Shown here: positions 53,794 through 64,000 of the stretch, piece by piece
Layout of the letters: the number at the start of each line of letters is the position of its first letter
How positions within the stretch are numbered: the first letter of the stretch is position 1
The notes under the pieces: generated by a model
Databases searched by the model: none
Seen by the model: only the letters and a program-made list of their open reading frames with translations
What the model was told of the DNA's origin: nothing
DNA from: Pelagibius sp.
GTDB lineage: Bacteria > Pseudomonadota > Alphaproteobacteria > Kiloniellales > Kiloniellaceae
DNA length: 64,000 nucleotides
Direction: 5' to 3'
Assembly: GCA_028280305.1 (NCBI GenBank)
Contig: JANQMC010000050.1
Span: 1-64,000, forward strand
Position numbers and translations under genes: made by a program

Positions 53794-54741
53794 TCAGCTG
53801 AAGGCGAGACGCGCTTTCAACGCCTTCGCTGCGCGACCGCCGCGTCCGCCGGCGGGCCGGCCACTGCGACCGCCCTGCAGCCGCTTGATCGTGGCCGGCA
53901 GCGCCTCGACGCGGTCAACCATGCCCTCACGCTGCGCTGCCTGGGCCATGACTGTGCGGCCTTCACCAAATCCGTTGCGCACGGCCGCCGGCGTCACACC
54001 GCGCGAAGAGGCCACAGCTTTGACGAAAGCCTTGTAATAGTCGTTCACGTCGGACTGAATTGCCGCGCGGGCCTCATCGTCAAGCGGTCCGAACGGGTGA
54101 CCCTCCGTCTTGTACTTGCCGGCGGAGATCAGCTCGACCTCCACGCCCATGCCTTCCAGCAGGCCTGCGATGTTCTCATGCGCTGTGTAGACGCCGATCG
54201 ACCCCACCACGCCGGAAGGCGTGACCACCAGTTCATCCGCTGCCGCACCGATCCAATAGGCGGCACTGGCTGCCATGGCGGAGGCGCTGGCGACGATACG
54301 CTTGTCGCCGCCGCGCAGGTTCATCAGGTGGTCGGCAAACTCCGGCACGCCGAAGACGCCACCGCCCGGGCTGTCGATATGCAGGATGATCGAACTCACA
54401 TCGGGGTCGGCCACGGCCCGGTCGAGTTGCGCGCGGGCCTTGTCGAGCGAAACAGCGCCGCTCATTTCGTCGAACATGTCCGCCCGCTGCATGATGACAC
54501 CGTGCAGCGGAATGATCGCGATGCTGCCGGCACGTACCCGGCCAACTTGTTGGCTGGGCTCGGCCGCACCGATCCGGGCGCGGATCTCCTCCTGGCCGAG
54601 ACGCCCGCCAGCAGAACGGAATTTCAGCAGATCCACGATGGTCGCCAGCATATGCGGCATGATCGCCCAGGGCATCTCGGCCACGGCACGGCAAACACGT
54701 GGGTAACGGTTGTCAATCGCGGAGATCTCGTCGTCTGGCAT
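53794..54741 (-). CDS. S49-family prohead protease
   Basis: 315 residues of SppA/S49 type. An oxyanion-type strand LHIDSPGGGVFG, the nucleophile Ser in ASASAMAASAAYWI and the base Lys in ISAGKYKTEGHPFG are visible. Phage members process the portal/capsid scaffold rather than signal peptides. The C-terminal 40 residues are Gly/Arg-rich (GGRSGRPAGGRGGRAAK) and may bind nucleic acid or the capsid. It lies between portal and capsid genes. Confidence 0.88.
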   Translation of the reverse strand: MPDDEISAIDNRYPRVCRAVAEMPWAIMPHMLATIVDLLKFRSAGGRLGQEEIRARIGAAEPSQQVGRVRAGSIAIIPLHGVIMQRADMFDEMSGAVSLDKARAQLDRAVADPDVSSIILHIDSPGGGVFGVPEFADHLMNLRGGDKRIVASASAMAASAAYWIGAAADELVVTPSGVVGSIGVYTAHENIAGLLEGMGVEVELISAGKYKTEGHPFGPLDDEARAAIQSDVNDYYKAFVKAVASSRGVTPAAVRNGFGEGRTVMAQAAQREGMVDRVEALPATIKRLQGGRSGRPAGGRGGRAAKALKARLAFS

Positions 54742-54753
54742 GGTCAGCCCTCT

Positions 54754-56043
54754 CTAGTCGTCGCCCGCGGCGACCAGGCGCGGCCGTTCGCCCGTGCTTG
54801 CGTTGTTGCTGTCTGGCGAGCCCGTGTCCGGCGCAGCGCCGACCGGTTCCATGTTCAGCGGCCGCAGGTACGAGTCGCCGCCCTCGACCGGGTTTCTGTT
54901 CAGCATCGCCCGGACATCGTTGATCGAATACCAGCCGCTCTGAATGCCCGCTTGGAAAGCTTCCGCCTGTTTTTTCATGTCCCCGCGCAATAGCCCGGCG
55001 ACGTTGTACTCGGCGAAGTACTCGTCTCCGTCGACGGTCAGCGGATCGACGATGTTGGTGTTGAAGCCGTCTTCCCAATTGCAGCCAACGGGCAAGAAGC
55101 TGTCGACCACGAATTCTATGGCTTGCGACTCGATGTTGTTGTTCGTCGCTCGGTCCAGCGCCCGGATCTTGTGCGGCGGTACGTTCAAGATCCGCGCGAT
55201 ATCAATGGCGCTTTCCTTTCGGGTTTCCAGGAACTGCGCGTGTTCGTTGTTGCGCTCCGGACCCTTCTCGAACTTGCCGGGGAAATCGATCAAGCCGATC
55301 TGGTGCGCCTCGGCGCCGGTCCGCGCTTTCTTGAAGGCCCTCTTGAACTTCTCGCGGTCTTCGGGCGTCTTGAAGGGCTGATCCAGAAAGACGAAGCCGC
55401 CGGCCTGGCCGTCGTTCTCGAAGAAGCGCGCGCCGTACTCAGCCACTGCCAGGGCATGAGCGAAGGTTTCGCGGTGGGTGCAATAGATCGGCACACCGCA
55501 GAGACCGTCCGTGGTGAACGGCCCCGCCTTCATATGCCAGATCTCATCGTCCCGCAGGCTTCGGACCTGGCCGCCGTTGGGATCCTGGACCCGGAACCAG
55601 ACCCGCCCGCCCCGGCGCTCCGGCGTTACATACGACGGATGGATCGGCCTCAGCTCGGCGATGGCGCTACCCATGCCCGGCACGATCTCAGCATAGGCGT
55701 TGCGGTGCAAAGAAAGATTGTCCTGCTGAAATGCGCGCCATTGAAAGCGGGTCCAGCCCTCGGCGGGGCGCCTTAGCAACTTCGCCGCGGGATGCTCTGG
55801 CGCCGGCAGTTTCTTATTGTCGCTGACGCGGCGGAACAACTGGAAAGGCAAGCTGGCGATCGGGTTGGTGATGGCCGCCATGCCGTCCTGCACCGCCGGA
55901 ATCGACCGGACCGTCTCGGCCGTCACTGGAATGCGCGGCAACGCCATCGCATGCGCCGGCGCGCGCTCGTACCAAAAATCGTTGCCGGGATCTCGATTGC
56001 CGCTCCCCGCGCTCATCCCGAACAGTCGACCGATCCAACTCAT
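54754..56043 (-). CDS. Portal protein (HK97 family)
   Basis: 429 residues. The FQWRAFQQDNLSLHRNAYAEI segment near residue 99 and LNVPPHKIRALDRATNNNIE near residue 290 are HK97 portal family hallmarks; the portal ring docks terminase and conducts DNA. The start overlaps the terminase stop by 4 bp. The C-terminus is Asn/Ser-rich and probably disordered. Confidence 0.9.
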   Translation of the reverse strand: MSWIGRLFGMSAGSGNRDPGNDFWYERAPAHAMALPRIPVTAETVRSIPAVQDGMAAITNPIASLPFQLFRRVSDNKKLPAPEHPAAKLLRRPAEGWTRFQWRAFQQDNLSLHRNAYAEIVPGMGSAIAELRPIHPSYVTPERRGGRVWFRVQDPNGGQVRSLRDDEIWHMKAGPFTTDGLCGVPIYCTHRETFAHALAVAEYGARFFENDGQAGGFVFLDQPFKTPEDREKFKRAFKKARTGAEAHQIGLIDFPGKFEKGPERNNEHAQFLETRKESAIDIARILNVPPHKIRALDRATNNNIESQAIEFVVDSFLPVGCNWEDGFNTNIVDPLTVDGDEYFAEYNVAGLLRGDMKKQAEAFQAGIQSGWYSINDVRAMLNRNPVEGGDSYLRPLNMEPVGAAPDTGSPDSNNASTGERPRLVAAGDD

Positions 56044-57764
56044 ACCGTCAACACCTCGTAATCGTCCGGAACGGAAATCCCACCCGACGCCGGGTTGCGG
56101 CTCATGAGCTGGAAGGCATTGAACGCTGCGACCAGGGGATCGATCTTGGCCGCCCCGGCCGTCTCTTTGTCGATCATGGTCGCATTGCCTTTCGCAATCG
56201 GCTTGGCATTACCGATGCACCAGGCCATGAGCGGCTGATCGGCGTGGATCAATGAGCGGTCTTTCAGTTTCCGCTCCATACCCTTAATCGCTCCGTTGAG
56301 CCGGTAGCCCTGGGGTACACCGCAAACCGGCCCGCCGTTGGCGTCGATCTCGATGCCCCGTTCCGACAGCGCATCGACCAGCACTGCAACGCCGATCGGG
56401 TCAAGGCCGACGCCGTACTTTTCCGGCAACAAGCCGGCCTGATGAATCTGCTCGACCAGGTCGGCGATCTGCTCGATATCTTCGGTGCCGATCTCACAGA
56501 TCACCAGATCGCCATCGGTCTCAAAATCACGAAGCCGCTCGGCGATATCCTTGCGCAGTTCCAGGACCGCGGCGTCGACCCAGGCGCGGCACCAAAGGAG
56601 CCAACGACCCGTCGTCCTGCAGCGACCGATCACCGCCAGCCCGAAGAGATCATCCAGTCCGCCGCCGTCGATGCCGACGGTTACGACTTCGCTGCGGGCG
56701 AGCAGCTCTTCAAGGGTCAGGACCCGCTCGGTCGCGGCCTCCCAGAAGTTGGAGGCACGCCAACTGCCGATGGCGACACCGATTTCGACATTGAGGTGTT
56801 GGGAAGCCCAACTCCGGACCTCCGCCTCGCCGTCTTCCCGCGCCTTGGCAAAGCCGTCTTCCAGGTCCTGGAGCATGACAGAGAGGCCGAGGTTTGGGTT
56901 GACCATGTGCCAGGTGCGGGGATCCTGCCAGGGCTTGGCGGGATCGGCCTGCATGTCCAAAGGGAACTCGTAGAGGACCGGCAGCAAGCGGACGTTGGCG
57001 GTGATCTTTCCGTCGCGCACCTTGCGCGCGTAGCTCAACTCGATCTTGAAGATGCCGGCCGGTGGACCGTCGCTCTGGGTCGTGATGATGACCAAGAGGC
57101 TTTCCGGCTTGGGCAGAAGGCCGCCGCGGATCTGGCGCAAGACCTTCGACGCATAGCTGTAAGACGACAGCTCGTGAAGCTCGTCCAGGATCACAATCAT
57201 CGGCTTGGTGCCGGTCATGACCTTGGTGTCAAAAGTCTTGATCTTCAGCACCGCCCTGGTCGTTCGGTCGACGACTTCCTTGCGGTGATCGCGGATGTGG
57301 AATCGCTTCTGGAGATAGCCTTCTTCGTCGGCATCGATCATGCCGACAACCTGCCCGAAACACTCGTCGGCGATCTCTTGGGTCGGTCCGACGACAAGGA
57401 TCTGCGCCCGGGGCCGCTTGTTGTCGATCAGGAACGTAAGGCCCATGCCGGCGGCGCCGGTGGTCTTGTTGTTCTTTTTCGGCACCAGGCCCAAGATCTC
57501 CCCGACCATGCGCTTGCCGCTGATCGGATCAATGGATCCAGCCGCTGCGCGCAGGATGTCGCGGAACCACTCGCCGGCTGCTTCGCCGAAGGTCGGCGTG
57601 CCCGGGACATCCGGCAGCCGCAGCTTGTTGAAGATCGAGACCGCGCGCTCGGCCGCCGTCGTGTCGAGCGGCAGCGGCGGCACCAGCGACGCCCCGCGCT
57701 CCAGCCTCTCCTTCCAGTCCGGACAGGCGAAACACCAGGTCTTCTCTGTGAGCGGCAGACTCAA
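56040..57764 (-). CDS. Terminase large subunit
   Basis: 574 residues. The ATPase domain has a Walker A-like LVPKKNNKTT (about residue 100) and Walker B MIVILDELHE (about 195-204). The C-terminal nuclease domain has the acidic cluster GIDGGGLDDLFGL, then CEIGTEDIEQ. It packages DNA into proheads. A TTG at 57764 with AAGGGG 8 bp upstream overlaps the small-subunit stop by 4 bp and is preferred over an in-frame TTG at 57782. Confidence 0.92.
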   Translation of the reverse strand: MSLPLTEKTWCFACPDWKERLERGASLVPPLPLDTTAAERAVSIFNKLRLPDVPGTPTFGEAAGEWFRDILRAAAGSIDPISGKRMVGEILGLVPKKNNKTTGAAGMGLTFLIDNKRPRAQILVVGPTQEIADECFGQVVGMIDADEEGYLQKRFHIRDHRKEVVDRTTRAVLKIKTFDTKVMTGTKPMIVILDELHELSSYSYASKVLRQIRGGLLPKPESLLVIITTQSDGPPAGIFKIELSYARKVRDGKITANVRLLPVLYEFPLDMQADPAKPWQDPRTWHMVNPNLGLSVMLQDLEDGFAKAREDGEAEVRSWASQHLNVEIGVAIGSWRASNFWEAATERVLTLEELLARSEVVTVGIDGGGLDDLFGLAVIGRCRTTGRWLLWCRAWVDAAVLELRKDIAERLRDFETDGDLVICEIGTEDIEQIADLVEQIHQAGLLPEKYGVGLDPIGVAVLVDALSERGIEIDANGGPVCGVPQGYRLNGAIKGMERKLKDRSLIHADQPLMAWCIGNAKPIAKGNATMIDKETAGAAKIDPLVAAFNAFQLMSRNPASGGISVPDDYEVLTV

Positions 57765-58204
57765 TTGAGCAGCCCCTTCCAACTCGTGGCCTCATGGGCT
57801 GTTTTCGCGTCGGCATCCGCCTGGGCTTTCTTGCCGAGAGTCTCTGGGTTGGCTTGTTCCGCCCCCGGTACTGCGGGCACAAACTCCAGGCGCCGGATCT
57901 CTTCGCCGAGCTGCTTGATGCAACTCGCGTTGCCGTTCGCCGCCTCGCGGTAAAGCATCATCAGGTGCGAGGCTTTCAGCCGCTCAAGAGCATCTTCACG
58001 AGACTGCAGCTCGCGAAAATAATGCTTCTTCAGGGTCGGCTTGGTGATACCCAACGCCGCCGCGATCCGCTCATCGGTTCGACCGATTGCCAGTAACATC
58101 ATGACTTTAATACGATTTTCCTCAGTCACGATATGCGGCGGCCGCCCGCGCTTGCCCCAGTTCTCCGGGATCGGGTCGCCAAGAAGGTCGAAATTCTCGC
58201 TCAT
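57761..58204 (-). CDS. Terminase small subunit
   Basis: 147 residues. A helix-turn-helix (GRTDERIAAALGITKPTLKKHY, about 48-70) precedes an acidic helical core that forms the ring around DNA. The gene is directly upstream of, and overlaps, the large subunit. Confidence 0.82.
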   Translation of the reverse strand: MSENFDLLGDPIPENWGKRGRPPHIVTEENRIKVMMLLAIGRTDERIAAALGITKPTLKKHYFRELQSREDALERLKASHLMMLYREAANGNASCIKQLGEEIRRLEFVPAVPGAEQANPETLGKKAQADADAKTAHEATSWKGLLN

Positions 58205-58285
58205 GGAAAAAAAATCCCCGAATGAGATGGGCAGCGGTCCTGGAACCGCAGGGCTGAAGAGATTTGACCCCCCCTGGGGTCTAGG

Positions 58286-58705
58286 TCAGTCTTCGCACTT
58301 CGGCAGCTCGCGGCGCGCGATTTCGAGGGCGATCGGGCTGTCGAGCCAGAGATCGTCTGCGGTGATCTTGCCGGCGTCGAACATCTGCTCCAGGATCTGC
58401 TTGACCACGTTGTGGCACCAGTCGCAGGACGCCTGCCATAGCGCACGATCCCAGAAGCGTTTCATGTCGCCGCGATGCGGGATGACATGGTCGGTGACTG
58501 TGGTTGCCTCGACAAAGCCGAGCGCCGTGCAACAGCGGCAGAGCGGGTTGTCACGCTTGAACGCCTTCGATGCTCTATCCCATCGCGCGTCATAGCCGCG
58601 AGCCCGGGCAGAGCCCCGGCGGCTGTCCGGCAGCGCTGCCGGCGCAGGTGCCAGGGCGGAGGGCGCCGCGGTCAAGCGCGCCAACTTACTGCTGCGCCGC
58701 GTCAA
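58286..58705 (-). CDS. HNH endonuclease
   Basis: 139 residues. The zinc-knuckle Cys pairs (PLCRCC and SCDWCH) flank the HNH core with VTDHVIPHRGD and HNVVKQ. In HK97-like phages an HNH protein next to terminase helps packaging, which suits its place before the small subunit. It overlaps the small gene upstream by 20 bp in another frame. Confidence 0.85.
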   Translation of the reverse strand: MTRRSSKLARLTAAPSALAPAPAALPDSRRGSARARGYDARWDRASKAFKRDNPLCRCCTALGFVEATTVTDHVIPHRGDMKRFWDRALWQASCDWCHNVVKQILEQMFDAGKITADDLWLDSPIALEIARRELPKCED

Positions 58706-58838
58706 GAGGCGGCAATAGATCTTTCAGCTTGAACCGCTCCCATGCAGCGAGCCCGCCCTCGGTATGACGGCATACCAGCAGGTCGCCCTGCTCGGTCACT
58801 TTGTATTCGTGCTCGCTCTCGGGAAGGGCTTCTCGCAT
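58686..58838 (-). CDS. Small hypothetical protein heading the late operon
   Basis: 50 residues, acidic with a CRHTEGGLAAWERF segment. The ATG at 58838 has AAGAGG 6-7 bp upstream; an ATG at 58913 would read through a terminator. It is the first gene after the terminator at 58869-58900. No family recognised. Confidence 0.55.
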   Translation of the reverse strand: MREALPESEHEYKVTEQGDLLVCRHTEGGLAAWERFKLKDLLPPLDAAQQ

Positions 58839-58868
58839 GTCGACCTCTTGCGTCGCCGATTGGCCATG

Positions 58869-58900
58869 AAAAAGCCCGCCTCGGCAAGCCGCCGGGCGGG
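58869..58900 (-). terminator. Terminator between the NusG-like gene and the late genes
   Basis: On the minus strand, CCCGCC/GGCGGG (58895-58900 with 58875-58880) stacks on an inner CGGC/GCCG with one bulged base and a five-base loop, followed by CTTTTT. It lies 10 bp after the NusG-like stop and 31 bp before the next gene, where lambda has the late terminator controlled by its antiterminator. Confidence 0.85.
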
Positions 58901-58909
58901 TCATCGGCA

Positions 58910-59557
58910 TCATCCGCGATGCCTCCGGACAACGGGTGAAAGCGCTTCGATGTAGAACTGCGCTTTGACCCGTCGATCAAACAAGGTTGTCCATAAGGTA
59001 ACTTCGCGGCCATTGTCAAGCTCGACAATTCCGGTTGTTCCCGCGAAGGGTCCTTCGATGATCCTAACCTCTTGGCCCGACTCAAGTTTTGCCCGGTTGC
59101 GGTCATGCACGGAAGGCACGTCCAAGACGCCGTCTTTGCCCATGCGTTCACGCCATTCGGTGACCAACGAATCCGAAAGCTGTTGCGGACGGCCGCCGCT
59201 GTGCAGAACCGTGGCGACGCCATGCGCGTTGTTCACATCGAAAAGCCCCTGCCTCGGCGCGACACCGACGAAGAGATAACGCGGCAGCAAGGCCCGCACG
59301 ACGGGCTTGATCTTGCGCGCGTGCCGCACCAGCTTGCGATAGCGCGGAAAGAATGTCTCATAGCCCAGGCTGCGCAGCTTCTGATCAGCCAGCGTTTCGG
59401 CCTGGCGGTTTGTGTGAACGACGAACCAGTCGAGCCAGTGCAGCGCGTTGCCGCCGCACTCGGGACAGCGTGACGGCGCGGCATCATTCACGCCCTGGCG
59501 CGCCGTGAACTTCGCCTGACAGCTCAAGCAGCGGCAGGAGACCAAGCGCACCGTCAT
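58910..59557 (-). CDS. Phage NusG/RfaH-type transcription factor with N-terminal zinc ribbon
   Basis: 215 residues. The first 36 carry C10-x2-C13 and C31-x2-C34, a zinc-ribbon pattern not found in host NusG. Then comes an NGN domain starting WFVVHTNRQAETLADQKL (about 43-130, with RYLFVGVAP) and a C-terminal KOW motif (GQEVRIIEGPFAGTTGIVEL, about 155-175). NusG paralogues bind RNA polymerase and change termination. The gene is coupled to the replication gene (4-bp overlap) and followed at once by a terminator and the late operon, which points to a late-gene antiterminator. Confidence 0.85.
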   Translation of the reverse strand: MTVRLVSCRCLSCQAKFTARQGVNDAAPSRCPECGGNALHWLDWFVVHTNRQAETLADQKLRSLGYETFFPRYRKLVRHARKIKPVVRALLPRYLFVGVAPRQGLFDVNNAHGVATVLHSGGRPQQLSDSLVTEWRERMGKDGVLDVPSVHDRNRAKLESGQEVRIIEGPFAGTTGIVELDNGREVTLWTTLFDRRVKAQFYIEALSPVVRRHRG

Positions 59558-60615
59558 GCGCGCCGCCTGTTGGACTTCGCCAGTGCCGCCCGCTCGACGG
59601 CCTCTTTCTCCTCGCGCCGCTTGCGGTTCGCCTTCGCCCTGTGGTCGTAGGTCCCGGATAGCACATAGCCGGTCGCCTTCACGATTTCACGCCGCCATTT
59701 GAACAGGCGACCTGAATGGATCTGGTCCGCCAGGGCCAACTTCAGCACGACGACGGGCACCGGATCGCCGAAAGGGATCTTGCCGTCCGGGCTGCTGTCC
59801 TGCCACTCGTCTTCCAACCGTTCGGTTACAAACGCGTCCTTCAGCGTGTATTCGACCACCGACCGCGGCGCCGAACGGATGCCGTCGAGGATCTTCGGCA
59901 TGATTGCCCGCAGCTCCGCCGCCATCGACGACGGCGGCTCGCACTCTCCAGCCGCTAGCGCTTCGCTTTCCCCTTGCGGGTCAGGCGGCCCATCGGGGTC
60001 GCCGCCTGGCGCGCAAGGGTTACTTTGGGTTTTTTTTAAGGGGTTTATGGGGTCCACCCTTATGGACCCTTTTGTATCTCCCGGTGGACCCTTTTCATCA
60101 CTCCGGTGGACCCTTTCGGGTTCCTTAAACTGTCCACCCGGTGGACCCTTTTGCGACGCTGCGTTGCCATCCTGGCCCGCCTGAAACTGTCCACCCGGTG
60201 GACCGTTTTGCGAGTCGGCCCCATCGATGCCGGCAGCCCGCAGGGGGTTCTCATAGGGCGACTTCTTCAGCGCCGCGAGCGCACGCCGATAGCCTTGGTC
60301 GTCGAAGTTTTTGACGTGCGGGTACAGTTCAGCGATGCGCTGCAGGTTCAGCGTCCAGTGCCGCGCCTTACCGCGGCCACCGCCCTCGCCTTCGTCCTTT
60401 TTGCTGTCCGGCGCAATGATGCCGTGCTCCTGAAACTCTTTCAGAAATTTGCGGTATGTGCTCCGGGCGATCGAGCAACGCATATAGACGTTGTGCGCTT
60501 TCGGAAAGACGGAGGTTCCGTCGTCGTTGCCGCACTCGGCGAACTTCATCAGAACCATTTTGCGGGACAGCTCCATGACGCGATCAGAGATGAAACCCTG
60601 CGCAGTGTTGCTCAA
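59554..60615 (-). CDS. Replication initiator-like (O-type) helix-turn-helix protein
   Basis: 353 residues. The N-terminal 120 residues form a winged-helix unit (KMVLMKFAECGNDDGTSVFP; SIARSTYRKFLKEFQEHGI) of the phage replication initiator/primosome loader type. The middle (about 125-200) is low-complexity and repeats KGPPGGQF-like peptides, because the DNA there holds an iteron array. The C-terminal part is helical and basic. The start is a TTG at 60615 with GGAG 7 bp upstream. It precedes and overlaps the NusG-like gene. Confidence 0.7.
   Translation of the reverse strand: MSNTAQGFISDRVMELSRKMVLMKFAECGNDDGTSVFPKAHNVYMRCSIARSTYRKFLKEFQEHGIIAPDSKKDEGEGGGRGKARHWTLNLQRIAELYPHVKNFDDQGYRRALAALKKSPYENPLRAAGIDGADSQNGPPGGQFQAGQDGNAASQKGPPGGQFKEPERVHRSDEKGPPGDTKGSIRVDPINPLKKTQSNPCAPGGDPDGPPDPQGESEALAAGECEPPSSMAAELRAIMPKILDGIRSAPRSVVEYTLKDAFVTERLEDEWQDSSPDGKIPFGDPVPVVVLKLALADQIHSGRLFKWRREIVKATGYVLSGTYDHRAKANRKRREEKEAVERAALAKSNRRRA
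60021..60050. other. A/T-rich segment next to the iterons
   Basis: A run of eight T then AA and a TTTA step (about 60030-60047) in otherwise GC-rich DNA. It lies at one end of the iteron array, as the unwinding element does in lambda-type origins. Confidence 0.5.
60051..60213. repeat. Iteron array, candidate replication origin
   Basis: Five copies of a motif with core CCGGTGGACCCTTT (plus strand) at about 60051-60074, 60081-60096, 60103-60118, 60127-60156 and 60184-60213. The first three are 22 bp apart; the last two are the longest and each contain a perfect 15-bp palindrome GTCCACC-C-GGTGGAC. The copies fall in different reading frames of the surrounding gene, so the DNA, not the peptide, is what is kept. 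Confidence 0.75.
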
Positions 60616-60626
60616 TGCCAGGCTCC

Positions 60627-60673
60627 AAAAAGACCCCCGGCGGCGGCACCTGCAGAGCAGCCGCCGCCGGGGG
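60627..60673 (-). terminator. Strong terminator/attenuator before the replication gene
   Basis: A perfect 14-bp GC stem (60634-60647 with 60660-60673) and 12-base loop, followed on the minus strand by TCTTTTT. It ends 12 bp before the start codon, next to the ribosome site of the replication gene, so it splits early genes from the replication-NusG block. Confidence 0.88.
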
Positions 60674-60796
60674 CAGTTGATGGGAGGGAAGGCAACACGC
60701 CTTCAGAGACGGTCAGGCGGTCGAACCGCCCGCGCCGCCCTTCGCCGCGACGACAGGCTTGCCGCGGGAAGCTCTTGAAACGGATTGGGCCGCGAT

Positions 60797-61036
60797 TCAA
60801 AGCAACCTGCCCTGGTCGGGCCCGTCGACGCGCAGGAAGCCCTTTTGACGCGCCAGGGGCCGCGACAGCGTGATTTCCACCGTCTGCCCCATATCGAAGT
60901 CAGCCGGCGCAACAGTGACCCAGGAAATCGGCACAAAGGTGCTATGCCCGCTGTCATCCTGGATGCGATAGGCACGGTTCGGCGTCTTGCAAAGGATCTT
61001 GCCTTTGAAGGTGAAGCTGTCTGCCGGAAGCTTCAT
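60797..61036 (-). CDS. Small hypothetical protein
   Basis: 79 residues, beta-rich with an OB-like look (FTFKGKILCKTPNRAYRIQD; GQTVEITLSRPLAR). It begins with an ATGA overlap with the ASCH gene stop, so it is coupled to it. No function recognised. Confidence 0.55.
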   Translation of the reverse strand: MKLPADSFTFKGKILCKTPNRAYRIQDDSGHSTFVPISWVTVAPADFDMGQTVEITLSRPLARQKGFLRVDGPDQGRLL

Positions 61037-61479
61037 CGCCGCCTGCCCCGCCGCGCCGGCGGCGGCGTGAAATCGGGATAGAAGAAGCCCTGTTTCCCGC
61101 GGCATGGCCTGAAGGGACGCGCCTTCGCCTCCGCGAGGGCATAGCCATAGCCGCCGGTAAACCAGGGGGAGTCGTCGATGAAATGCCGATGCCAGTTGGG
61201 GATCGCGTCGCCGACCGTCCCACAGCCGACGACGCGGACCCGGCCGACGATGCCGCCGCGCGGATATAGATTCGGATCTTCCGGCATCACCACGCCGAAG
61301 TCGCGTTTCAGGCGCTCCTGGGCCCAGGCCCAATCAAAGTCGGGATCGAAGGTCAGCCCGGCATGGATCAGCAGCGTGCCGCGGTGGCGCGTCGCCCTGG
61401 AGCGGTTCTCGACATCCTTGAAGCCGTTGACGACAAGCCAGGCCCAAGGTTGCCAGATTGACAGCGCCGGGTAGGTCAT
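61033..61479 (-). CDS. ASCH-domain protein
   Basis: 148 residues. The opening PALSIWQPWAWLVVNGFKDV with ENRS and HRGTLLIHAG is the ASCH domain pattern (PUA-like fold that binds RNA or modified nucleosides). ASCH proteins are frequent in phages and may act as RNA-binding regulators or nucleic acid hydrolases. It overlaps both neighbours by ATGA junctions. Confidence 0.8.
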   Translation of the reverse strand: MTYPALSIWQPWAWLVVNGFKDVENRSRATRHRGTLLIHAGLTFDPDFDWAWAQERLKRDFGVVMPEDPNLYPRGGIVGRVRVVGCGTVGDAIPNWHRHFIDDSPWFTGGYGYALAEAKARPFRPCRGKQGFFYPDFTPPPARRGRRR

Positions 61480-61757
61480 AGCTTCAGCCCGCCTTGCCGT
61501 TCGTCTGCCTTGGTCTTCGGTGCCGGCAGACAGGCCTGGATCCCCTTGACCACCAGTCGCCAGACCGAAACCGCTTCGCTGGGATGACCTTCGACGCGCC
61601 CGGACTTCCAGGCCTGCCGCTTCACATTGAGAAGCTCAACGTCGTAGTTGCGCCGCGTCTTGCTGCCGGTCCCGTCGTTACAGAGCCGCATGACCGCGAG
61701 GGTCTTCATGGTGCCCGGGCGGCTCGCCGGCCATAGCTCGACTTTTACGACGATCAT
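61476..61757 (-). CDS. Small hypothetical phage protein
   Basis: 93 residues, basic and mainly beta (MIVVKVELWPASRPGTM; NYDVELLNVKRQAWKSG). It is coupled to the ASCH gene by a 4-bp overlap and to the gene upstream in the same way. No family recognised. Confidence 0.55.
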   Translation of the reverse strand: MIVVKVELWPASRPGTMKTLAVMRLCNDGTGSKTRRNYDVELLNVKRQAWKSGRVEGHPSEAVSVWRLVVKGIQACLPAPKTKADERQGGLKL

Positions 61758-62173
61758 GACTTCGGATCCTCGACCAACGGGTTCCGCAGCTCGACCAAGA
61801 GCCGACCACTCTTTGACGCTGTTTCGATCCGGTCATAGAGGTTGCGGGCTGCTTCCGGCCCGGAGCATCTGAAGCAGATCGAGACTGAGTCTTCGCCCTG
61901 GACCAAGCCGACATCCTCGCGACCGACGATCACGCTTTGCTGCCGCAGAACCAACTGGCGGAGCCGACCCCTTGTTTCCGGCCCTTCAAGTGGGATCATT
62001 CGCCAGGAAAAACCCTCGATCACAGCTACTGCTTCGCCTGGAGACAGGCCTCCGCGCCGCGCAAGCTGTTCCAGACTCTGGCAATGGTTCCGCTTTGCCT
62101 GTTCTTCGTGTGGGCCGATCACCGACCAGGGGATGTCTTCCCCGCCCATGATTGGGAACATGCGATCTTTCAC
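61754..62173 (-). CDS. Hypothetical phage protein
   Basis: 139 residues, mixed helix and strand, with a possible DNA-binding helical stretch (LEQLARRGGLSPGEAVAVIEGF). It overlaps genes on both sides by 4 bp. Role unknown. Confidence 0.5.
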   Translation of the reverse strand: MKDRMFPIMGGEDIPWSVIGPHEEQAKRNHCQSLEQLARRGGLSPGEAVAVIEGFSWRMIPLEGPETRGRLRQLVLRQQSVIVGREDVGLVQGEDSVSICFRCSGPEAARNLYDRIETASKSGRLLVELRNPLVEDPKS

Positions 62174-63294
62174 AGCAATTCCCCCTGTGCGGCCTTCGCC
62201 GTAAGCTGCGGCGGCTGCAGATCCCAGATCGCGCAGTCGAGGACGCGGCCGGCGTTGTGCTTGCCGACCTTCACGTAAAAGACGCCGTCCTCGCCCAAGC
62301 GCCCCTCGAAGGCCTTGCCGTGGAACATCGGCCCGTCGTCGTTATGGAGCCGCCCGCGGTTGCCGCGGGTCTTTTCGAAGCGGGTCGCGCCGAGCTGATC
62401 CATCGGTGCCCATTCGCCCCATTGTTTGAAAAAGAAGGCCACCAGGGCCGCGAGACACTGGTCCCTGGCCGAGCGCACAGCCGCCGGGTTCGTTATGCGT
62501 GCGACCTGCCCCCGCCGCTCGCTCTCACCGCCGCAGATGACTTGATCGATACGCGGCCAGGCGATGTCCTCTGGCGGCGTGGTTGCCGGATCATGATAAG
62601 GCAGTTCAAACACCTCATTGTCCGGCCCTTCGCTGGTCAACAACGCCTCTTCCTCGTGGGTGTAGATGAAGAGGAAGGGGTTAAAGTCGACGGGTTCGAG
62701 TGCCGGCTCATAGCTCACAAAACGCCAGGCCGTCGACGTCTTCAGCAGCAGCGGAATTCGCTGATCAGCCGTCTTCTGATCTTCGACGGAGACGCCGAGC
62801 CCGACGTTTGGTAGCGGCCAGGGTGGCGCCTCACAGCCCAACCGGCTTTCGTCAATTTCGACGAGCTTCACCCAAACCCGGAACCCGGAGCCCCGTTTCT
62901 CGATGTATTCGAACATCCGCTCCGGGCGCTTGGTCAGGATCTGGAAGCGGTGCTGTGGACACAGCGCCATGACGGCGAAGATCTTGTCCAGCCAGTGGTC
63001 GTCGACCCAGTCACCGAAAACATCGGTCATCGAGCAAACGAAGATCATGCGCGGCCTGCGCCACGTCAACGGCTGCAACAGCGTCTCTTCGTCCAGGAAG
63101 ATCTCGACCTTGTCCCGGTCCTGCTTGGCATAGCGGATGAAGTTTCGGAACCGCTTCTGCATGGCCTCGGCATAGCAGTTGCGGCAACCCTCCGAGACGT
63201 GTTCGCAGAAATGCCCGATGCCGCCCGTTTCCAGATTGCGCGCCCGGATCGGGTCCCAGGTTTCGTCGGTCCACTCGATACGCGACTTTGCCAT
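62170..63294 (-). CDS. DUF5131 / phage Gp37-Gp68 family protein
   Basis: 374 residues. The N-terminus SRIEWTDETWDPIRARN and the cysteines C30, C37 and C40 (FCEHVSEGCRNCYAE, CX6CX2C) are the hallmarks of the Gp37/Gp68 family, related to radical-SAM-type iron-sulfur proteins. VCSMTDVFGDWV and RFVSYEPALEPVD are also typical. The family is common in phages of alphaproteobacteria and actinobacteria; its reaction is unknown, possibly base or nucleotide modification. Confidence 0.88.
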   Translation of the reverse strand: MAKSRIEWTDETWDPIRARNLETGGIGHFCEHVSEGCRNCYAEAMQKRFRNFIRYAKQDRDKVEIFLDEETLLQPLTWRRPRMIFVCSMTDVFGDWVDDHWLDKIFAVMALCPQHRFQILTKRPERMFEYIEKRGSGFRVWVKLVEIDESRLGCEAPPWPLPNVGLGVSVEDQKTADQRIPLLLKTSTAWRFVSYEPALEPVDFNPFLFIYTHEEEALLTSEGPDNEVFELPYHDPATTPPEDIAWPRIDQVICGGESERRGQVARITNPAAVRSARDQCLAALVAFFFKQWGEWAPMDQLGATRFEKTRGNRGRLHNDDGPMFHGKAFEGRLGEDGVFYVKVGKHNAGRVLDCAIWDLQPPQLTAKAAQGELL

Positions 63295-63297
63295 GGG

Positions 63298-63501
63298 TCA
63301 GCCTCCAGTCTTCTTTGAAGCGCTACCGAGGACACACCAGAGCGCCCCTGCAGCCATGCAAGACGCCATGCCGATGGACACCGCCACAGCAGACGGAAGA
63401 TCAAAAAAGCGATCAATCATCCGCGTTGCGCCCATCACGAAGACGGCTGATGTGAAATAGCCAGCGCCATAGATCATTCCCTTGGCCAATGCGTCCCACA
63501 T
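63298..63501 (-). CDS. Small membrane protein
   Basis: 67 residues with two hydrophobic segments (YGAGYFTSAVFVMGA and AVAVSIGMASCMAAGALWCVLG). It follows the Cys-rich gene after 3 bp. Function unknown. Confidence 0.55.
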   Translation of the reverse strand: MWDALAKGMIYGAGYFTSAVFVMGATRMIDRFFDLPSAVAVSIGMASCMAAGALWCVLGSASKKTGG

Positions 63502-63504
63502 CGA

Positions 63505-63681
63505 TCAGTCCTCTTCATCATCGGGAGGCCAGCACGCGACCTCGTGATAACCCTCGTCATCGTCGATGCATCCGCCATCGCAGTTCGGGCATTCGATTTC
63601 ACCCCGCCCGCAGACGCACATATCCCCGCCGCAGAGACACTCGATCACGCCCATGTTGTGGCAGGTGTCGCAGTAGCCCAC
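63505..63681 (-). CDS. Cys-rich mini-protein
   Basis: 58 residues from a GTG at 63681 with GGGAGG about 8 bp upstream. It has nine Cys in CxxC, CxC and CxxC groups (YCDTCHN; ECLCGG; MCVCGRG; ECPNCDGGC) and an acidic C-terminus (WPPDDEED). The pattern looks like one or two zinc-finger units of rubredoxin or DnaJ type. It fits exactly between neighbours with 3-bp gaps, which supports it being a real gene despite its size. Confidence 0.7.
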   Translation of the reverse strand: MGYCDTCHNMGVIECLCGGDMCVCGRGEIECPNCDGGCIDDDEGYHEVACWPPDDEED

Positions 63682-63684
63682 GGG

Positions 63685-63936
63685 TCAGCCCTCCCAGTTG
63701 TCAGGCAGGATGATTTCGACCTTGCCGGTCAGGGTGTGTTGGGCGATTTGTTTCGGATTGTCGGGGTCGAGGGTGAGGTTGCCGTTGCCATTGAGCTTGA
63801 AGCAGAGAACTTCTCCCAGCTCCTCATCCGCCGTCAGCGGCTTAGGCACCTCGACACCGTCCAGCAGGACACGCACGCCCCGGCCCTTTGCGCGGGGATC
63901 GTAACCCCGGTCGGTCTCGATGATTGAAAGGCGCAT
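63685..63936 (-). CDS. Small hypothetical phage protein
   Basis: 83 residues, beta-rich (RLSIIETDRGYDPRAKGRG; LCFKLNGNGNLTLDPDN). It is upstream of the Cys-rich gene in a compact run. No family recognised. Confidence 0.55.
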   Translation of the reverse strand: MRLSIIETDRGYDPRAKGRGVRVLLDGVEVPKPLTADEELGEVLCFKLNGNGNLTLDPDNPKQIAQHTLTGKVEIILPDNWEG

Positions 63937-63945
63937 GAACGTCTC

Positions 63946-64000
63946 CTAAGCCGTTCGGTCGCCATCCGGCGACGCGGGGTCGACGCCGATCGCCGTCACC
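63946..64000 (-). CDS. C-terminal end of an early phage gene, cut by the window edge
   Basis: The last 17 codons of a minus-strand frame (VTAIGVDPASPDGDRTA, then TAG) end 9 bp before the next start. The spacing and composition fit the compact early operon. Nothing can be said of function. Confidence 0.4.
   Translation of the reverse strand, partial: VTAIGVDPASPDGDRTA

Follow-up and report, generated by a model that had tools for sequence, protein, structure and literature searches.

LoaP of Bacillus velezensis is a NusG paralogue; it binds a small hairpin in the leader RNA of its target and there lets polymerase read through an intrinsic terminator (PMC12691694). RfaH is loaded at a DNA element, ops, and works poorly at intrinsic terminators (PMC7593976, PMC7819879); rfaH-like genes on prophages have been noted earlier (PMC7593976). 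Lambda Q, AlpA and Caulobacter GafZ are unrelated to NusG and load at DNA elements in promoters; their genes occupy a slot ahead of the late genes of a phage or GTA, where a terminator has to be bypassed (PMC11150451).

The window analysed here, a stretch of 64,000 nucleotides from a Pelagibius sp. contig (JANQMC010000050.1), carries a prophage gene in the same slot, but with a product of the NusG fold, and where lambda Q, AlpA and GafZ have DNA sites, relatives of the window phage have an RNA element. With RfaH and other specialised NusG paralogues the window protein shares NGN and KOW domains and, putatively, a long operon as client (PMC7593976, PMC7819879), whereas its KOW is predicted to be a beta barrel and that of RfaH has a helical form. 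By virtue of its NusG paralogue, leader RNA hairpin and intrinsic terminator, LoaP is the nearest working analogue of the system proposed below. Structured RNA precedes an intrinsic terminator in LoaP client leaders and likewise in rhizobial and Bradyrhizobium relatives of the window phage. The clients of LoaP, however, are antibiotic operons and its small hairpin has a UNCG loop, whereas here the putative client is a phage late operon, the gene lies next to its presumed target, and the rhizobial relatives carry a larger two-hairpin element with GNRA-type loops. Unlike LoaP, the window protein has an extra candidate zinc ribbon, and RNA binding is proposed for it. The protein matches PHROG 6386, 'transcription antiterminator' (E 1.8e-23), a family that has no zinc ribbon, also matches host housekeeping NusG, and as a genome query returns mostly housekeeping NusG; its annotation is silent on an RNA element, a terminator or a role in late-gene expression.

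The NusG paralogue and its setting

The gene (58910..59557, minus strand, as are all window features below) is an ORF of 215 aa with an ATG start, encoding an N-terminal CxxC/CxxC region (probable zinc ribbon) followed by NGN and KOW domains, according to profiles and predicted fold. The NGN domain scores 50.2 bits to PF02357, over the Pfam cut-off, and the KOW domain falls slightly short for PF00467 (20.0 bits against a cut-off of 22.3). AlphaFold2, given a 24-sequence alignment, modelled the NGN domain confidently and the C-terminal KOW as a beta barrel with high confidence, and a Foldseek search with this model returned NusG, RfaH in elongation complexes and 8f5g, a 'NusG-RNA complex'. The protein belongs to the NusG superfamily. 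Within it, the best curated NCBIfam profile is RfaH (TIGR01955, 60.8 against a cut-off of 144.5), with UpxY at 56.1 bits, far under its cut-off; neither housekeeping NusG (TIGR00922, 32.3 against 135.7) nor LoaP (NF033641, 29.5 against 125) is reached, and a quick tree places the protein on the RfaH-like side. Searches of Pfam, NCBIfam and PHROG matched it to NusG-type and zinc-ribbon families and to no Q family. In the host assembly (86.6% complete) the window gene is accompanied by one RfaH-like paralogue, encoded on contig C117; no housekeeping nusG turned up, probably because the assembly is incomplete. Order-level NGN matches without the zinc ribbon were set aside as relatives; they resemble RfaH-type host paralogues.

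An intrinsic terminator (58869..58900; stem 58900-58875 plus a U5 T tract, by hairpin prediction) begins 9 nt past the stop codon of the NusG paralogue. Its energy of -27 kcal/mol (z -3.4) was equalled by 2 of 200 shuffles, which bears out the first-pass annotation of a strong terminator directly behind the gene. Downstream lie an HNH endonuclease gene, the first recognised late gene (58286..58705; phrog_2323, E 2.7e-25), and genes for a terminase small subunit-like protein (TerS, 57761..58204; phrog_12540, E 1.5e-47, a TerS in related phages), the terminase large subunit (TerL, 56040..57782; phrog_9, E 9e-107; PF20441, PF03354), a portal protein (54754..56043; PF04860) and an S49 head maturation protease (53794..54741; PF01343), then the major head, adaptor and tape measure genes. 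The late genes for packaging, head and tail that had been read as following the terminator are thus in place, on one strand, and the lambda Q-type layout, in which the gene precedes a terminator and then the late operon, is present. A possible ORF of 75 aa (58686..58913), whose ATGA overlaps the NusG-paralogue stop, reads through the terminator; an alternative start at 58838 would give 50 aa, and no family match was found for the 75-aa frame. Because that frame crosses the terminator hairpin, ribosomes could in principle affect termination.

Upstream, the NusG-paralogue ORF overlaps by 4 nt a rep-like HTH gene (59554..60615), assigned from weak PHROG replication-initiation matches and from the same neighbour in relatives. 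A further, very strong terminator-like hairpin with a T5 tract (60622-60676; -42.6 kcal/mol over 73 nt, z -3.3) stands directly before the ribosome-binding site of the rep gene, so that the rep-NusG pair is bracketed by two terminators; this hairpin may be a second target. Within the rep-like gene, five spaced GGTGGACCCTTTT-like repeats (60061-60209), a number that none of 100 shuffles reached, are possible replication-origin iterons, by analogy with lambda O. On the early side, a large serine recombinase, preceded by a ParB-like gene, is encoded at L354:8107-9732 (contig C32:72107-73732) and may mark where the prophage has its integrase end; the prophage would in that case cover about 33-74 kb of the contig.

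Layout and RNA elements in related phages

The arrangement recurs in at least nine named phages. The common order is a rep/HTH gene, an NGN/KOW gene (often overlapping it), a gap, then HNH, TerS, TerL and portal genes, with a variant that has the same genes without HNH. It occurs in Sinorhizobium phages phi3LM21 and phi2LM21, Mesorhizobium phage vB_MseS-P1, Agrobacterium phage Rivra, two Bradyrhizobium phages, Labrenzia phage V1 and phage Nsp-JY10, and in Rhizobium phage PPF1 as far as the end of the record allows. TerL lies downstream of the NGN gene in 64 of 118 and 27 of 80 fetched viral loci, counts constrained by the length of the loci and the choice of TerL seeds; in none is it upstream. 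A terminator-like hairpin lies within 260 nt of the stop codon for 86 of 173 phage NGN genes, as against 29 of 489 control ORFs; the share is 74 of 101 in the rhizobial-type set and 12 of 72 in the wider set, and five relatives (L061, L066, L069, L073 and L077) have no recognisable terminator. The order of gene, terminator and late genes thus recurs in many phages, and the hairpin follows NGN genes oftener than control genes. Depositors had already annotated relatives as NusG or antitermination protein.

Comparison of the gaps in phi3LM21 and vB_MseS-P1 revealed a shared structured stretch, and two DNA patterns drawn from it retrieved 120 copies of what we call the type-1 element, the one that occupies the gap in the main rhizobial group. 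In 107 of the 107 copies with at least 600 nt of upstream sequence, an NGN/KOW ORF ends 87-150 nt upstream of the element; in none does it lie downstream. Clustering of the 109 linked NGN proteins gives 77 groups at 90% identity and 24 at 50%, and the copies are therefore not one phage repeated. In an alignment of 50 sequences, 90.5% of stem cells are paired, changes on both sides of a pair number 54 where 18.2 are expected, and covariation scores 0.230 against 0.113, a value as high being reached in 0 of 500 shuffles. When the partner is slid by 1-3 columns, pairing falls to 15-47%; since shuffles leave relatedness in, these displaced-partner controls and the distribution across 24 protein groups weigh more. 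Loops of the second hairpin are mostly GNRA (GUAA 33, GAAA 29, GCAA 26), with UACA in 26. A terminator-like hairpin begins 10-28 nt downstream of the element in 99 of 119 copies, compared with 1 at the control position. Rfam 15 holds no credible family match to the element. Marginal matches of the type-1 model in five other genomes were dismissed, there being no NGN gene there. Phage Nsp-JY10 (L143), whose recorded host is the cyanobacterial Nostoc, carries a rhizobial-type element, an NGN gene and an alphaproteobacterial-type terminase; that host entry may be in error.

A second, type-2 element is common to six Bradyrhizobium-type loci and consists of a CCTGATTCCAGG-like stem, GACGCGCGAAGCG and a terminator. 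An NGN-type ORF ends 0-63 nt upstream of it in all five loci with enough sequence, and overlaps it in one locus. In a quick tree the proteins linked to type 1 form one clade and those linked to type 2 another, each with SH-aLRT of 96%.

Some related phages fill the slot differently. In RcapNL (L142:139-897), Pthi1 (L141:3524-4282) and two further loci (L076 and L080), another gene stands before HNH, TerS and TerL; the RcapNL and Pthi1 versions are 38% identical, have no Pfam match, and possibly encode an alternative late antiterminator or activator that invites comparison with GafZ/GafA. None of these four gave a credible match to the type-1 model. A related prophage with TerL at 50% (G334) has no recognisable NGN gene.

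Window hairpins and the zinc ribbon

Neither the type-1 nor the type-2 element was found in the window, and the type-1 model gave no credible match in the host genome. The position between the NGN 3' end and the terminator, where relatives carry their RNA element, is occupied in the window by two hairpins. The larger, an imperfect hairpin of the 15-bp class inside the 3' end of the NusG ORF (58930..58975), has an energy of -24 kcal/mol (z -5.9), with 0 of 200 shuffles and 1 of 500 random 51-nt prophage windows equally low. The smaller (GGCATC-GCGGAT-GATGCC, 58906..58923) lies between it and the terminator. The prophage of the nearest phage-type relative (G240, TerL E about 1e-200) has an NGN gene, two small hairpins, a terminator and then late genes. 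A loading hairpin of a window type is a plausible candidate, an idea that rests on one or two sequences; the hairpin at 58930-58975 is a single sequence in coding DNA, was sought when the comparative result was already known, and found no close relative by which to judge its conservation. We infer from its position that it could be the loading site of the window phage.

The fused architecture of CxxC/CxxC, NGN and KOW described in the first-pass annotation is present, with CxxC at residues 10-13 and 31-34. The N-terminus scores 26.3 bits to Zn_ribbon_8 (Pfam cut-off 34.4) and 27.3 to the FmdB-type model TIGR02605 (cut-off 31.3). The structure prediction proposed for the ribbon gave confident NGN and KOW domains and did not confidently model a ribbon fold, the N-terminal 40 residues having a pLDDT of 47-57; the ribbon assignment thus rests on the cysteine pattern and weak profile matches. 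The further idea that the fusion is the key to the system is not supported. Two N-terminal CxxC motifs occur in none of the other approximately 270 NGN ORFs, gathered from phage, prophage and host sequences, and no further zinc-ribbon/NGN fusion was found in IMG/VR, GTDB genomes, phages, plasmids or several hundred whole genomes, while ribbon-less phages keep the same layout. A sequence with 'PECGG' in locus L286 was rejected as a second zinc-ribbon case, being a chance match that lacks the first CxxC. Several other phage NGN proteins bear different N-terminal extensions of similar length. As the ribbon is found in no other collected NGN ORF, it is not a defining part of the system, and by this comparison it is a lineage-specific variable part. 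Contact of the ribbon with RNA, DNA or polymerase is a candidate role and a guess; a role in cis like that of Spt4 is conceivable by analogy, Spt4 being the zinc-finger partner of Spt5 (PMC7819879).

A proposed late-gene switch and its alternatives

We regard the window protein as a phage NusG paralogue that probably acts as late-gene antiterminator or processivity factor of the prophage, at a probability of roughly 0.7. The overlap of the rep and NusG genes suggests that the protein would be made with the early/replication operon. Polymerase going past the gene would halt at the terminator just behind it, and expression of the packaging, head and tail genes would stay low. As the protein builds up to a sufficient level, its NGN domain would bind elongating polymerase, as those of NusG, RfaH and LoaP do, probably loaded by an RNA structure transcribed right before the terminator, and the modified polymerase would read through that terminator and later stops. 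The domains, the layout and its recurrence, the terminator and, in relatives, an RNA element tied to gene and terminator are observed; the read-through activity and the RNA binding are what we infer. More tentatively, and at somewhat less than even odds, many alphaproteobacterial phages may switch on their late genes by a self-encoded NusG paralogue acting on a dedicated RNA beside its own gene, an RNA-guided class in which each of two or more RNA types goes with its own protein clade; the window would hold a third type, its zinc ribbon helping to read the in-gene hairpin.

A terminator behind a gene is also the normal end of an operon, which counts against reading it as a switch. So do the relatives that lack a recognisable terminator, its low frequency in the wider phage set, the absence of both comparative elements from the window, and scores under each curated NusG, RfaH and LoaP cut-off. 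The protein might be an RfaH-like processivity and anti-Rho factor that would spare the long late operon pausing and Rho action, with the terminator only trimming the early transcript and the late genes having a promoter of their own. RfaH is its best curated profile, at 60.8 bits, the tree agrees, and specialised NusG paralogues typically have clients such as a late operon of about 25 kb. We consider this improbable, however: the close and recurrent spacing of element and intrinsic terminator in relatives fits control of the terminator, and no sigma-70-like minus-strand promoter was found in 55000-64000 by a scan that is weak for GC-rich alphaproteobacteria.

The gap element of the rhizobial phages could instead be a packaging (cos) site beside HNH-TerS, linked to the NGN gene by position only. 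It does lie just upstream of the HNH and TerS genes, where cos sites are common, and in RcapNL this gene block is preceded by cohesive ends. Compensatory changes in the pairs, and loops that are mostly GNRA, nevertheless point to an RNA, every copy that could be scored has its NGN gene at 87-150 nt, and the related HNH-TerS-TerL phages without an NGN gene carry no credible match, leaving the cos explanation unlikely, with a slim chance. Slimmer still is the chance that the window protein acts on host transcription, for instance by displacing host NusG, and not on its own late operon. Any NGN protein could compete with host NusG, and the unexplained zinc ribbon may count in its favour; against a host target speak the position of the gene directly ahead of the late block in many diverse phages and the RNA element that relatives carry with it.

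The preferred reading, late antitermination by a phage NusG paralogue, keeps the layout recognised in the first-pass annotation, and the antitermination function assigned there is probably right too; the zinc ribbon moves from the centre, and the RNA elements of the relatives, which had been missed, come in. As a kind of protein the window gene product is known, a specialised NusG paralogue, and what is new is its predicted use as a phage late antiterminator. We found no description of the phage arrangement or of the RNA element in the open-access literature. If the reading is true, these phages would join LoaP as a second natural case of NusG antitermination recruited by RNA, and the type-1 element would add a new RNA family, absent from Rfam 15. 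The system would be a compact cassette of gene plus site, with a mechanism that laboratory strains make directly testable, in a group of phages, those of alphaproteobacteria, whose late-gene control beyond the lambda-like model has been little described.
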